A stretch of DNA of 64,000 nt from Halocaridina rubra (taxonomy: Eukaryota; Arthropoda; Malacostraca; Decapoda; Atyidae), in the NCBI GenBank assembly GCA_037179515.1, contig JAXCGZ010022678.1:110001-174000 (forward strand), read 5' to 3'. This document shows, one piece after another, positions 6,764-54,068 of this stretch (its first letter is position 1; the number at the start of each line of letters is the position of its first letter). Under the pieces are notes generated by a model that saw only the letters and a list, made by a program, of their open reading frames with translations, was not told the origin of the DNA and made no database searches. Both the position numbers and the translations under genes were made by a program.

Positions 6764-6844
6764 TTACATGCCGAAGTAGCCTCCAATTGTGGAAGCGAGC
6801 ACCACGCATAGTACTGCCACACACACCATGATCATGATCTTCTT
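6764..6844 (-). CDS. Syntaxin-1-like alternative last exon 3 (canonical-type membrane anchor)
   Basis: On the minus strand, caccccttgcag is followed by a phase-0 exon of 26 codons plus TAA. It begins KKIMIMVCVAVLCVVL and ends ASTIGGYFGM. The ending resembles the AST-GG anchor ending of vertebrate syntaxin-1 more than either other exon, so this is the most canonical of the three tails. The role inferred from the family is membrane anchoring of a neuronal plasma-membrane t-SNARE. Two Cys residues lie in the cytoplasm-proximal half of the anchor, as in palmitoylated syntaxins. It is the most distal exon in transcription order, about 34 kb past the middle exon and 47 kb past the first. Sequence below 6764 would be 3'UTR for this isoform. 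The frame is open further on both sides by chance, but the conserved acceptor position and phase shared with the 41.1-kb exon fix the boundary. Confidence 0.88.
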   Translation of the reverse strand, partial: KKIMIMVCVAVLCVVLASTIGGYFGM

Positions 6845-8037
6845 CTGCAAGGGGTGCATAGGCACAATGCTTATTAAATATAGTATGGGAGGCACATACA
6901 AGCATAAAACAAACCTCCATGAAAGTTAGAAAAGTATTCAGTCCTCTAGAATAGCCTATACTCAAGCTGAGTGTGGCTAGATAAGGACTACCTTAGACTG
7001 GGACAGTGGGACCCATGCACCTGCTGCTTCATCACTTTGCCTTCTTAAATGTGTCACGGACAAATGTAGAACAAAAAAGGAAAGAAAATGAGCAAAGATT
7101 CAGAAAGATATTATTAAAAGTTTAAGGATATTCATGCCCAAGTTAGAATTCTATTTCACTGTATCTAACTGAAAAACAGTTTACTACCAACGAATCAATG
7201 AATATAGGCATCAAATGCTACCATTTGTAGTAGTTAATTCGTCTTTGTACTTAAATTAGCGATCTCCTTTCTTGCTAATACCAAGGTGGCAACATAAGGC
7301 ATAAAAACTTACAATAGTATGACAGTACAGATCACTAAATGTATGTAAATGATGCATGTAACAGAAGTGCCATCCCTCTAACATTATCCCTACAGCACCT
7401 CCTGTCAAAGTTTACGGTCAATTGTCTTTAAAATAATGCATACTTCTGGAGTTCACTATCACATTAATGTAAGGTACGTATTAAGTCTCGCGGATTACTT
7501 GATTTTTTCCAGGTGTTTGGGGAAAGAATTAAGCATCTGTAGCTCCTAAAAGTTGTAAGAGTTAAATGAGATGGATAGGGGAGTAAAGGGCTGGCAATAT
7601 CCCTTTTTTATTCAGTTATGACCACTCTGGTAATGGCAGTAGGATATGGCATTATGTAGAAAACATGAACAGTAATCATGGCTTTGCCCAAAATATTGGC
7701 CTGGAAACCATATTTGCAACCAAAATTTGTTATTCATGACAAGTCCAATCCTCTGTATGACATCAACCACTACTAGATACTCGGTGCCAAATTCTTAAAG
7801 GGTAAATAATTTGCCTTACAGATAAAATTTGTTTTTGTTTATTTTTAATGCTCATATTCCACATGATTACATCTGCCAAAACAAGTCCTTCATAAGAAGG
7901 CAACCGTCCTAGCCCTTAGTAGAAAAGGGAGTTCGTGACGTAAAACCGAATCCATTCTACAAATTTTAATGTCAAGAGAGCTTAGATATACATATCATGC
8001 ATTCCGTTAAGGGCATATTTTAATTTTTATATGCAAA
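6845..8037. other. Non-coding stretch upstream of the distal syntaxin exon
   Basis: AT-rich intron-like sequence; I see no gene or repeat family in it. Confidence 0.4.
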
Positions 8038-8186
8038 ATATATATATATATATATATATATATATATATATATATATATATATATATATATATATATATA
8101 TATATATATATATATATATATATATATATATATATATATATATATATATATATATATATATATATATATATATATATATATATATA
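8038..8186. repeat. (TA)n microsatellite
   Basis: Pure TA tract adjoining a MITE-like element. Confidence 0.97.
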
Positions 8187-8502
8187 CACACAGCGGGTTC
8201 TCGACTAGAGTAAGAGTTCCGTTTCTGAAACTTGATGTAACCTGATTTTCAATGTTGGGTCAGAACACACCTAAATATGAACCTATGCTAATGCAGTAGT
8301 AAAGCATCTCCCTTTTCCATGAATTTCACCATCTCTAATTTCACATCCATGGTGATGGCTTTCCTTTTTTTTTAAGAGCACGGGGAGACATAATACAGTC
8401 AAAATTGATCAAAACAGAAGCAAAACAAGTCATGGGAGATGTGTTTGTAACTACAAAACATCGTAACTCGAGGACATTGTAAACCAAGGACCCCCTATAT
8501 AC
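8187..8502. mobile_element. MITE-like element
   Basis: The left end reads cagcgggttctcgac after (TA)n. The right end, read in reverse, is tagggggtccttggtttac before tatac. The ends are imperfectly inverted and both sit at TA, as for non-autonomous Tc1/mariner/pogo elements. No coding content is seen. Confidence 0.45.
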
Positions 8503-8519
8503 ACACACACACAGAGAGT

Positions 8520-50960: not shown

Positions 50961-51886
50961 CCTTCCACATGAATGGTCAAATCATGTAACCTAGAATTAG
51001 GAAAAACAGTTATTCCCCTAATTCCTCTATCTATATACAAGGCCCTATTCCCCTCTTTAAGGTGAGGGGCCGAATCAAGAAATACACATTCACCATGATC
51101 CACACATACCTCAACCACTTCTCTTAGCCCTTGGGGACAAAGGTTTGCCACATATCCCCCATACTACCCTACTTGGGTCACCCACAAGGTAGGCAGGCAA
51201 GGATATATTCTACAGTGAGGCCCGACAGCCGCTGCTACTTTACCCCCACCACGTCATCACATGGTAACTCCCCTTACATCCGTCCATCACAGATCACTGA
51301 GCTAGCAATTGTGAGAAATCGATTAGGCCCAAGTCACCTATACACAATCTTCCTCCACTCATTCCTATCTCTTGCATACTATCTTCCCTACTCCACTTAC
51401 AGTCCAGGTGCATCCAGTGTCCTTTTCACGACACCCATCCCTCTCATTCTAGGTCCTCCTCTTGGCTTTACTCCAACCACTTATGTACTTCACATTCTCT
51501 TCGCCAATCGTTCATCACTTATCCTTTCCATGTGTCCAAATCATCTCAATACTCTCTGACAGCTTTCTTTCTACACCTTTTCTCTGCCCAACCTTCTCCT
51601 TCCTTACTATATCTATTCTAGATAAACCAATCATACTTCTCAAACACCGCATCTCCATTACATTCAACTTGTTATCATTCTCTCATGCATTTTAAGTCTC
51701 TGCACTATACAATGCTGTCGGCACAATCACACCTTCATAAATCCCTCTCATTGCATTTATTCCTAAATACTTACATCTCATCACACTTTTCAACCCATCT
51801 AGACATTTACTTGCTTCCTTTACTCTATGACTTACCTCAGCATCCATTCATCCATTTTTTGTCACGTTTGACCCCAGATACTTTTT
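50961..51886 (-). mobile_element. RTE-like LINE 3' fragment
   Basis: On the minus strand, from 51886, frames read EVSHRVKEASKCLDGLKSVM, IYEGVIVPTALYSAET, KLNVMEMRCLRSM, FGHMERISDERLAKRM and RDRNEWRKIVYR, with stops and shifts. This is the same C-terminal order as the 12.6-15.9-kb RTE-like element (VMKNRG... GHVERM... RNRNEWR). About 350 bases of 3'UTR follow down to the (TA)n tract. It represents a different, older subfamily. Confidence 0.75.
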
Positions 51887-53811
51887 TTTTTTTTTTAGGA
51901 TGGGATAGGATAGGAGGGGAAAAAGAGGATGGGATTAAGTATATAAGGGAATTGGAGGGAAAAGCATGAATATTAAATAAAGTAAGAGATAAAAATGAGA
52001 GGGGCAGACCCTCGTGCTAAGCTTTGATCTGGAATTCAGAATTAAAACTCTCAACTTCTTCAAGCAAACTCCAAATTCACTCCTACATGAAATCTGCCAA
52101 CATTAACACTCCTCGCACATCTCATAACTTTATTTCCCCTAATTCCAATACAGGAAAACATATCACATTACTATAACCAGCTGAGTCGCATTTCCCACAA
52201 GCTCTTGGAAGTTACTATAACATACACAGACCTACCAAAAGACTACCTGACAGTTATTGATAGAATGTGCAGCATTAACTTTGATACTCTAATTATTAAA
52301 ATTGATAGCAAAAGCATCTAGGAATACTGTAAAACAAATGAGTAAAATGATCAATAAGGAAACTTAAATGCCAGGTAAGGAAAAATCACTTACCAGATAT
52401 CACTATCACAGTGCCATATCTTTACAAATAGAAATGTAAATCTATATGGTGAATAATGATATTTAGGTTTGGCTATGATAATACAGTAAGATTTTATTAA
52501 TAGCTGAAATGTATTGCTTGACTTCTCTATTTTTTTTTGCTCTGGCAGAGCCATGCAAAAACATGAAGAAATTTAACACAAACATGGAGTAAAGGACACT
52601 ATTTAAAGCAAAACAATACTTGAGGCATAAGACTTCATTTGGGCATTAGACAAAGAAAAAAAAAATCATCTGCTATGAATAGTTAATTAGCGAGAGTCAA
52701 TATGTCAGTCTGGATAAGAATTATTGATATATTATTAGGAGTGTTAAGTTTTAGGGCAAATGAAACCTAAATTGTATTTCCTCTATTACAACATATGGCA
52801 ATTACACTAGGCTTTACAAACTTCACACAAAATAATCATTCAATAGGAATGTATTATGGTAACTTCAACTGAAAGTTCTTTATTTCATCTGTTACAACCT
52901 ACTATAAAATACAATTATTGCAAGAGGAGCTCTACTCATTAAGATACTCGGCAAGTCTTTATAAATTAGAATTCATATAATGTAGCATTCAAAGGAGAAT
53001 ATGCTAAGTTTTGAAAGTTTAAGAATTACTTTAACAATTCTTATTCCTGATGAATTATTATGTTAATTTTACCTTTCTGTAGACCTGAAAGATGTCATGC
53101 TTATTATAATGGCCATTAAAATAGGCGTAACAAATGCTCCATTGAATTATATTTTTGTTTGTCATCACATATATAAATGAAAATTTAAATAAACTGTAAG
53201 AATTAAACCATTGTAGCTTAAGGGAAAGACTAAGACAGTACTATATTTTCAGGCTTCATTTCCGGTGTTTCTACTAGGTACTGTTATCTCTGATATGGCA
53301 ATAAAAAAGCTAAATCACATTCTACATCTTCTTCTCTCAAGTCATTGTATATACGGTAGTTCTTTGAGATTGCCAGTACAATATCTATATTTTATAATTT
53401 AATGTTATAAGACTGACAGAATATGAATAAAATTAAGGCAAAAATATATCTTGCTATCAAAATATATCTACATAATCTAATTATGTACATAGCAAGACTT
53501 ATAAGAGTCTGACATTAAAGTAAATTTTTGGCCAATAGCACATTACACTACCAAATTTCAAAGTATCTGACAAGTCACCAAATGGAAGTCCAGACTTTCA
53601 CATCTAAACAACTGTATGCAGAGCACAATACTGTGTATATCTTAAATTGTGGGAAATAATGTCACTTTTCTCGTATTTGCACTGTAAAAGTAGATAATTT
53701 ACCATGGAGTCATTAAATGTTTATTCATACATGAGACTAGGAGTTAATTCAATCACTGTACAATAAATAATTACACGTTTAATACAAATATGACTCAGCA
53801 GCTACTAAGGC
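51887..53811. other. Unannotated stretch downstream of the proximal syntaxin exon
   Basis: Starts with a T15 run and a gggatagga-rich segment (51887-52010) that may be the tail of an unidentified retroposon. The rest is AT-rich and featureless. A minus-strand AATAAA at 53720-53725 could serve the exon at 53943. Confidence 0.35.
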
Positions 53812-53934
53812 ATATATATATATATATATATATATATATATATATATATATATATATATATATATATATATATATATATATATATATATATATATATATA
53901 TATATATATATATATATATATATATATATATATA
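53812..53934. repeat. (TA)n microsatellite 8 bases past the exon 1 stop codon
   Basis: Pure TA tract; on the minus strand it would form the first part of the 3'UTR of the isoform using exon 53943-54068. Confidence 0.97.
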
Positions 53935-53942
53935 AAAAACTG

Positions 53943-54068
53943 TTATTCGTTGCCAGAAGACTCATCTCTGCCACTATCATTACTTGAGTTTGAAGTCAAT
54001 GTGACTGCCAATATAATAGTCAATATTAACACGCAGCATACGCCAATGAACAAGATTAGTAACTTCTT
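53943..54068 (-). CDS. Syntaxin-1-like alternative last exon 1 (membrane anchor with long acidic tail)
   Basis: Reading right to left, a strong pyrimidine tract ending in ttttccag is followed directly by a phase-0 exon of 41 codons and a TAA stop. It opens with [12 protein letters not shown], continues as a hydrophobic anchor (about residues 3-24), and ends in a hydrophilic tail [17 protein letters not shown]. The Lys-Lys start, phase and acceptor position match the two other anchor exons at 41.1 and 6.8 kb. In syntaxin-1 proteins the C-terminal anchor follows the SNARE helix and fixes the protein in the presynaptic plasma membrane, with the C-terminus outside the cytoplasm. The tail here is longer and more acidic than in canonical syntaxin-1 and has two N-X-S sequons (NSS, NDS). 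The adjacent Cys pair in the anchor resembles palmitoylated cysteines of this family. The stop is 8 bases from a (TA)n tract. A minus-strand AATAAA lies at 53720-53725. Upstream SNARE exons are not in the window, so assignment rests on parallelism with the other two exons. Confidence 0.72.

Follow-up and report, generated by a model that had tools for sequence, protein, structure and literature searches.

The stretch of the genome of the atyid shrimp Halocaridina rubra (1.18 Gb) examined here, termed the window, comprises 64,000 nucleotides (C19447:110001-174000, within a contig of 209,786 bases) and contains three exons, TM2, TM3 and TM4, each encoding a C-terminal membrane anchor. These are very probably alternative last exons of the H. 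rubra syntaxin-1A gene, in which alternative splicing at two sites would tune release and sorting. The two-site exon architecture in itself we hold to be highly probable from the sequences: one of three exons encoding the C-terminal half of the SNARE motif (halves A, B and C) would be selected, followed by a choice among four last exons (TM1, close to the C19447 end, and TM2, TM3 and TM4, in the window) for the membrane anchor and the outer tail. The SNARE-half exons lie on a second contig of the same genome, C17153 (32,046 b). Because the halves end and the anchors begin in phase 0, any half could join any anchor, allowing up to 12 proteins. For a role of the exon choice in tuning release, which is argued from analogy, we see the chances as evenly balanced.

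Anchor exons

Each of the three window exons (Table 1) starts with AAG-AAG in phase 0 directly after an AG acceptor on the minus strand and encodes one hydrophobic segment followed by a stop codon, just as the original prediction described them, including the KKIMIM motif in two of the three (TM3 and TM4). The predicted count of three anchors was too low. The fourth, TM1, is located 35 kb past the window edge and 315 bases from the C19447 end, and the distance from the first to the last anchor on this contig amounts to 93 kb. Over their first 16 residues, TM3 and TM4 have 15 amino acids but only 7 codons in common, a pattern expected under protein-level selection.

A signature scan of both C19447 strands (AG, two K/R residues, a hydrophobic segment and an early stop, with a loose hydropathy cut-off of 1.6) returned four matches, all on the minus strand, while 40 contigs simulated with the C19447 dinucleotide frequencies averaged 0.85 matches, with a maximum of 4. 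All four real matches (weakest 2.63) and none of the simulated ones exceeded a hydropathy of 2.6, a line chosen post hoc from the real values and therefore descriptive rather than a preset test. When 188 arthropod syntaxin tails were combined into a profile and compared with 8,809 AG-to-stop peptides from C17153 and C19447, the inclusion threshold was passed only by the four anchor exons, complete or truncated in frame (best E 3.6e-14; 4e-5 for the weakest full exon), and no further anchor with other first residues rose above it among these peptides. Pfam did not recognize the three short tails alone (best E 0.07 to 0.91, chance-level). From the simulation, with its post hoc cut-off, and the profile scan, an origin of the anchors as chance hydrophobic open reading frames (ORFs) was judged unlikely.

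The TM2 tail of H. rubra contains the sequons NSS and NDS. N-glycosylation of this tail as a conserved feature was considered and rejected, as sequons were not seen by eye in the Macrobrachium, Penaeus monodon and Procambarus tails. A GTAAGT motif resembling a 5' splice site is present at window position 6744 on the minus strand, 19 nt past the TM4 stop, and TM4 might be spliced to a further 3' untranslated exon.

Table 1. Exons and splice acceptors of the putative syntaxin-1A gene (window positions unless a contig is given)
Feature	Location	Strand	Description
TM1, fourth anchor exon	C19447:209471-209394	minus	encodes KRILIIICVVVLLIVLAIILIVTLA, then stop; outside the window
TM2, alternative last exon	53943..54068	minus	22-residue hydrophobic segment and 17-residue polar outer tail; stop included
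TM2 AG acceptor	54069..54070	minus	strong pyrimidine tract, with a pyrimidine fraction of 1.00 in the preceding 20 bases
TM3, alternative last exon	41101..41184	minus	KKIMIM type, end ...SYLGLI; encodes KKIMIMVCVSVLCVVLSLSGASYLGLI, stop included
TM3 AG acceptor	41185..41186	minus
TM4, alternative last exon	6764..6844	minus	KKIMIM type, end ...IGGYFGM; encodes KKIMIMVCVAVLCVVLASTIGGYFGM, stop included
TM4 AG acceptor	6845..6846	minus
Syntaxin-1 body exons	C17153, starts at 30046, 29517 and 14971	minus	starts read at AG borders
SNARE half A	C17153:4398-4288	minus	111 nt, AG/GT borders, phase 0 at both ends
SNARE half B	C17153:3576-3466	minus	111 nt, AG/GT borders, phase 0 at both ends
SNARE half C	C17153:2239-2129	minus	111 nt, AG/GT borders, phase 0 at both ends

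SNARE-half and body exons

Halves A, B and C follow one another in tandem, end in KARR or KARK, and all exceed the PF05739 cut-off. As neighbouring, homologous exons of equal length and the same phase with compatible splice sites, they have the layout of a mutually exclusive exon cluster, and their use may be strictly exclusive. They encode the C-terminal SNARE half and differ pairwise at 10, 11 and 16 of 37 residues (21-27 shared), with 16 of the 37 positions differing among the three in all. Among the core layers, only +1 (I to M in C) and +4 (A to S in B) vary. Compared with half A, half C carries N for D231, N for Y235, Q for E238 and K at 248. The upstream border of the half exons follows the glutamine that we take to correspond to rat Q226. 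The C-terminal SNARE half was taken as Q226-V255 in a study of mouse neurons (PMC10957171).

The exons on C17153 match residues 99-266 of Drosophila Syx1A at 68-96% identity per piece (tblastn); a tblastn search with full syntaxin-1 found no location for the first ~98 residues on C17153 or C19447. The contig encodes both the N-terminal domain and the SNARE motif that mark a syntaxin-1 (Qa-SNARE), and the single C-terminal anchor right after the basic KARRKK stretch, also a mark of this family, is offered by four anchors in phase with KARR or KARK. A motif scan showed no SNARE exon in the window, and tblastn with full syntaxin-1 showed none on C19447. Because of the direction of both contigs, the lack of anchors on C17153 and the lack of SNARE exons on C19447, we take the two contigs to adjoin, so that one gene would run from C17153 base 1 into C19447 base 209,786.

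The residues of a database entry, 'Syntaxin-1A, partial [Halocaridina rubra]' (P0026), agree with the C17153 exons. This deposited model contains half C only, lacks an anchor and has two extra residues at its end, and the window exons thus fall outside it.

Isoforms in other arthropods

Three protein searches (25 proteins; the best 120 of 635; and, with half A in the query, the best 120 of 3,844) were pooled into 219 distinct proteins, and parsing separated body, SNARE half and tail in 210 of them. Clustering of the database at 90% identity may hide isoforms. In Penaeus japonicus, one 231-residue body occurs with C+TM1, C+TM4, B+TM4 and B+TM2 (models P0009 with TM1, P0016 and P0033 with TM4, and P0090 with TM2), halves B and C thus both being found with TM4, whose first 24 residues in H. 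rubra are identical to those in P0016 and P0033. An identical 231-residue body in Macrobrachium nipponense is followed by half C with TM2, TM4 or TM1 (P0004, P0015 and P0012, respectively), and one body in M. rosenbergii by half C with TM2, TM4 or TM1 (P0005, P0017 and P0013, respectively). Several anchors are therefore joined to one upstream SNARE exon in the models of two Macrobrachium species, and P. japonicus and Macrobrachium together show more than one pairing of half with anchor. These decapod models, in which an identical 231-residue body carries ends that are counterparts of TM2, TM4 and TM1, give good support to the anchors being alternative last exons of one gene.

Long polar tails corresponding to TM2 were found on syntaxin-1A of Macrobrachium, Penaeus and Procambarus, and the outer TM2 tail is not constant among decapods. 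Tails similar to TM4 are common among the arthropod proteins listed. TM3-type tails occur in P0029, P0030 and P0031, the last from the isopod Armadillidium vulgare, and, by eye, in P0034, always with half B; 20 of the first 24 residues of TM3 match P0031. Such counterparts on full-length syntaxin-1 proteins favor the predicted membership of TM3 in the same gene, but no named decapod protein with TM3 was among the matches listed. Half B is found with all 37 residues identical in at least 8 parsed proteins and half C in at least 10, H. rubra included, while half A is identical at 36 of 37 residues to a half present in at least 117 parsed arthropod proteins.

Full-length ORFs of 293-296 residues were also found on contigs of ~1-4 kb. 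Examples are P0011 (C+TM1; 80 contigs, the longest 3,735 b), P0010 (C+TM1; 5 contigs, 1,265 b), P0029 (B+TM3; a 1,237 b contig), and P0034 (1,071 b) and P0041 (979 b), whose 232-residue bodies and B halves are identical but whose anchors are TM3-like and TM4-like, respectively. We infer that such contigs are spliced cDNA; they are hardly genomic because the H. rubra gene spans more than 120 kb if C17153 and C19447 adjoin. We expect the exons described here to be used in H. rubra RNA.

In Daphnia, a termite, a cockroach, a katydid, thrips and others, identical bodies carry either a TM4-like tail or a more evenly hydrophobic one, TM1-like by eye. The two-anchor choice therefore looks old in pancrustaceans. 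The second halves of insect proteins, possible orthologues of B or C, have only 15-24 of 37 residues in common with H. rubra half A.

A pattern search found two SNARE halves in 19 of 222 proteins, and in 18 of these two different halves follow each other closely. The 18 proteins come from mosquitoes, a sand fly, a biting midge, beetles, an ant, a psyllid, a butterfly, a moth, thrips, a barnacle, an isopod and one unnamed source. We read them as the work of gene predictors that strung alternative exons together; one of them, P0032, plainly read through an intron. Together with the deposited H. rubra protein without an anchor, they call for caution in annotation.

Possible functions of the exon choice

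Syntaxin-1 is a central fusion protein of nerve cells, in which it powers signal release. Vertebrates vary syntaxin largely through the paralogues STX1A, 1B, 2, 3 and 4. In H. rubra, one gene seems to vary the module that sets primed-pool stability and spontaneous release in mouse chimeras (Q226-V255; PMC10957171) and, separately, the anchor. Swapping Q226-V255 in mouse STX1A altered the primed pool and spontaneous release, and STX1A with the C-terminal half of STX2 had a smaller primed pool and more spontaneous release in mouse neurons (PMC10957171). All six single mutants in that study raised the miniature frequency, D231N significantly but E238V and V248K not significantly, and evoked amplitude was unchanged in all six (PMC10957171). 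D231 and E238 are reported at the primary interface with synaptotagmin C2B (PMC10957171), and a review lists E224, E228, D231 and E234 for the C2B interface (PMC9623538). Only two of the half C changes, D231N and V248K, are exact equivalents of mutations tested in mouse.

By analogy with these results, halves differing mostly at surface positions would tune the binding of partners such as synaptotagmin and Munc18 and, through it, the priming and clamping of release, with half C giving a less tightly clamped syntaxin. The anchors may tune membrane sorting, fusion behavior and tissue use, as with UNC-64A and UNC-64B of Caenorhabditis elegans. It is a tentative proposal, and one we place somewhat short of an even chance, that arthropod syntaxin-1A is a combinatorial protein, cells picking SNARE half and anchor independently to make up to 12 decapod syntaxins from one gene, half C being a low-clamp, STX2-like form and half A a tightly clamped, more conserved one.

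Among known systems, C. elegans unc-64 is alike in being a syntaxin-1 orthologue whose alternative last exons, 8a and 8b, give different anchors, are regulated and have a functional consequence (PMC4946901). Each of its anchors has 25 residues, of which the last 14 differ, and locomotion was rescued in worm neurons by UNC-64A and not by UNC-64B (PMC4946901). It differs in having two anchors as opposed to four in H. rubra, and the available text of that report mentions no alternative SNARE halves. Mammalian Syntaxin2 also has alternative C-terminal anchors on one syntaxin but is another paralogue with two isoforms, again with no SNARE-half choice mentioned in the available text (PMC4946901). 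SNAP-25 exons 5a and 5b resemble the half exons in being copies that lie close together in the gene of a neuronal SNARE; the two are mutually exclusive, as the half exons may be, and differ at 9 of 39 residues (PMC2581893), and mice that lose the b form show impaired short-term plasticity (PMC2581893). There, however, the gene encodes another SNARE, has two copies, and the changed part spans palmitoylated cysteines, whereas H. rubra has three copies of a syntaxin zipper half. RNA editing of Drosophila Syx1A is a different mechanism from exon choice (PMC12634045, PMC12295206). The arthropod syntaxin-1A models in databases represent the same gene with the same two variable sites, scattered over mostly automated entries.

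Alternative syntaxin anchors, alternative exons in a neuronal SNARE and a two-anchor choice, widespread in arthropod models, were thus known already. The less usual part is the presence of three alternative SNARE-half exons upstream of the anchors, which goes beyond the three anchors first predicted. We found no description of the double choice in syntaxin-1 among the open-access papers listed, which is weak evidence of absence as subscription papers were mostly outside reach. The suggestion that such a choice may be undescribed in this lineage is thus borne out only in part, since databases already contain isoform models. The locus would offer SNARE halves and anchors that nature has exchanged, and evolution tested, on a body that stays the same, by which the question of why syntaxin anchors are not interchangeable would become testable.

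Alternative explanations

Several points weigh against a single gene with two functional splice choices. No sequence joins C17153 to C19447, their adjacency being deduced from orientation, phase, complementary exons and the isoform models of relatives, and the 'isoform X' entries are predicted models. Among the matches listed, no named malacostracan protein has half A, though half A was queried, and no named decapod protein has TM3; these gaps speak against full use of the two exons. A search for RNA pairing arms round the SNARE-half cluster gave 17 pairs, none convincing (14 AT repeats, the other three 74-81% complementary). CELF-type motifs in the 200 nt before the acceptors showed no clear pattern, with 1 for A, 8 for B, 4 for C, 2 for TM1, 3 for TM2, 2 for TM3 and 1 for TM4 at a background of 1.15. 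The excess of conservation at core layers is not significant (2 of 8 layers vary, as do 11 of 20 other positions, P=0.15; wider set, P=0.06), and no weight is therefore placed on it. With regard to function, the authors of the mouse study dispute that the C-terminal half of STX1 sets the speed of evoked release via synaptotagmin and regard their data as evidence against a part of STX1 in evoked release through the C2B interface (PMC10957171), and over-expressed UNC-64A and UNC-64B both rescue axon regrowth in the worm (PMC4946901).

The alternative that best survives, unlikely as we consider it, is that the exon choice is real and has little functional effect, near-equivalent anchors and halves differing only in the tissues that splice them. 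The mild changes in only two of the eight core layers, the variable outer tail of TM2 among decapods and the rescue of axon regrowth by either worm anchor (PMC4946901) would fit such equivalence. It accords poorly with the complete or near constancy of halves B and C among the listed malacostracan proteins, with the unequal worth of the worm anchors for locomotion (PMC4946901), and with the mouse data, in which six surface residues of this half were changed singly and four of the changes raised miniature frequency significantly (PMC10957171).

Somewhat less probable is that TM3 or half A, or both, are leftover exons no longer spliced in H. rubra. The gaps among named decapods for TM3 and named malacostracans for half A, in the matches listed, would be explained in this way, yet the clustering of the database at 90% may hide isoforms. 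Moreover, all exons are open with intact splice borders, and decay would not preserve the 20 of 24 residues that TM3 shares with the A. vulgare protein or the 36 of 37 that half A shares with the half of at least 117 proteins.

It is very unlikely that the anchors come from at least two neighbouring syntaxin paralogues, each equipped with SNARE exons of its own. The 93 kb between the outermost anchors and the location of the SNARE exons on another contig could suggest this, but tblastn with full syntaxin-1 over C17153 and C19447 revealed a single set of body exons and placed no SNARE exon among the anchors, no host gene was recognized by eye among the 30 window ORFs of at least 110 aa, and an identical body carries several of these anchors in three decapod species, from which different genes were judged unlikely. 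Least likely of all, inclusion of the SNARE-half exons together, which would yield longer syntaxins with a doubled second half, is allowed by the reading frame that every half exon keeps and by the 18 of 222 proteins showing two halves together, but the 37-residue insertion would repeat the zipper half, most of the 18 proteins are genome predictions, P0032 among them with its intron read-through, and we know of no functional protein with a repeated syntaxin zipper half.

Other features of the locus and related models

The ORFs of at least 110 aa in the window comprise transposon and microsatellite ORFs and several without assignment. By eye, two on the plus strand resemble the endonuclease/reverse transcriptase of non-LTR retrotransposons (12709-15402, 897 aa; 8757-10205, 482 aa), with partial relatives elsewhere within the window, and a third, of 371 aa (23207-24322, plus strand), resembles a Tigger/pogo-type DDE transposase, to which a stretch at C19447:184617-184324 is related. 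Very long TA microsatellites are also present, for example at 45342-46325, and another starts less than 20 bases after the TM2 stop (53943). C19447:107501-110000, outside the scanned sequence, consists of 2,500 N bases.

Two models without an anchor, P0023 (M. nipponense X3) and P0161 (Procambarus clarkii X4), end after half C or half B and might be soluble forms or model errors; their end tails have no convincing counterpart in C17153 or C19447 (best E 0.16). In the mite protein P0149 (Blomia tropicalis, 431 aa), the remaining one of the 19 proteins with two halves, body sequence separates two C-terminal regions that resemble syntaxin-1; the predictor may have fused two tandem copies of the gene. 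Two other SNARE-motif genes of the H. rubra genome, L004 (C6861:60464-60616) and L001 (C3605:17082-17228), have the SNARE half and the hydrophobic segment in one exon, unlike syntaxin-1A.

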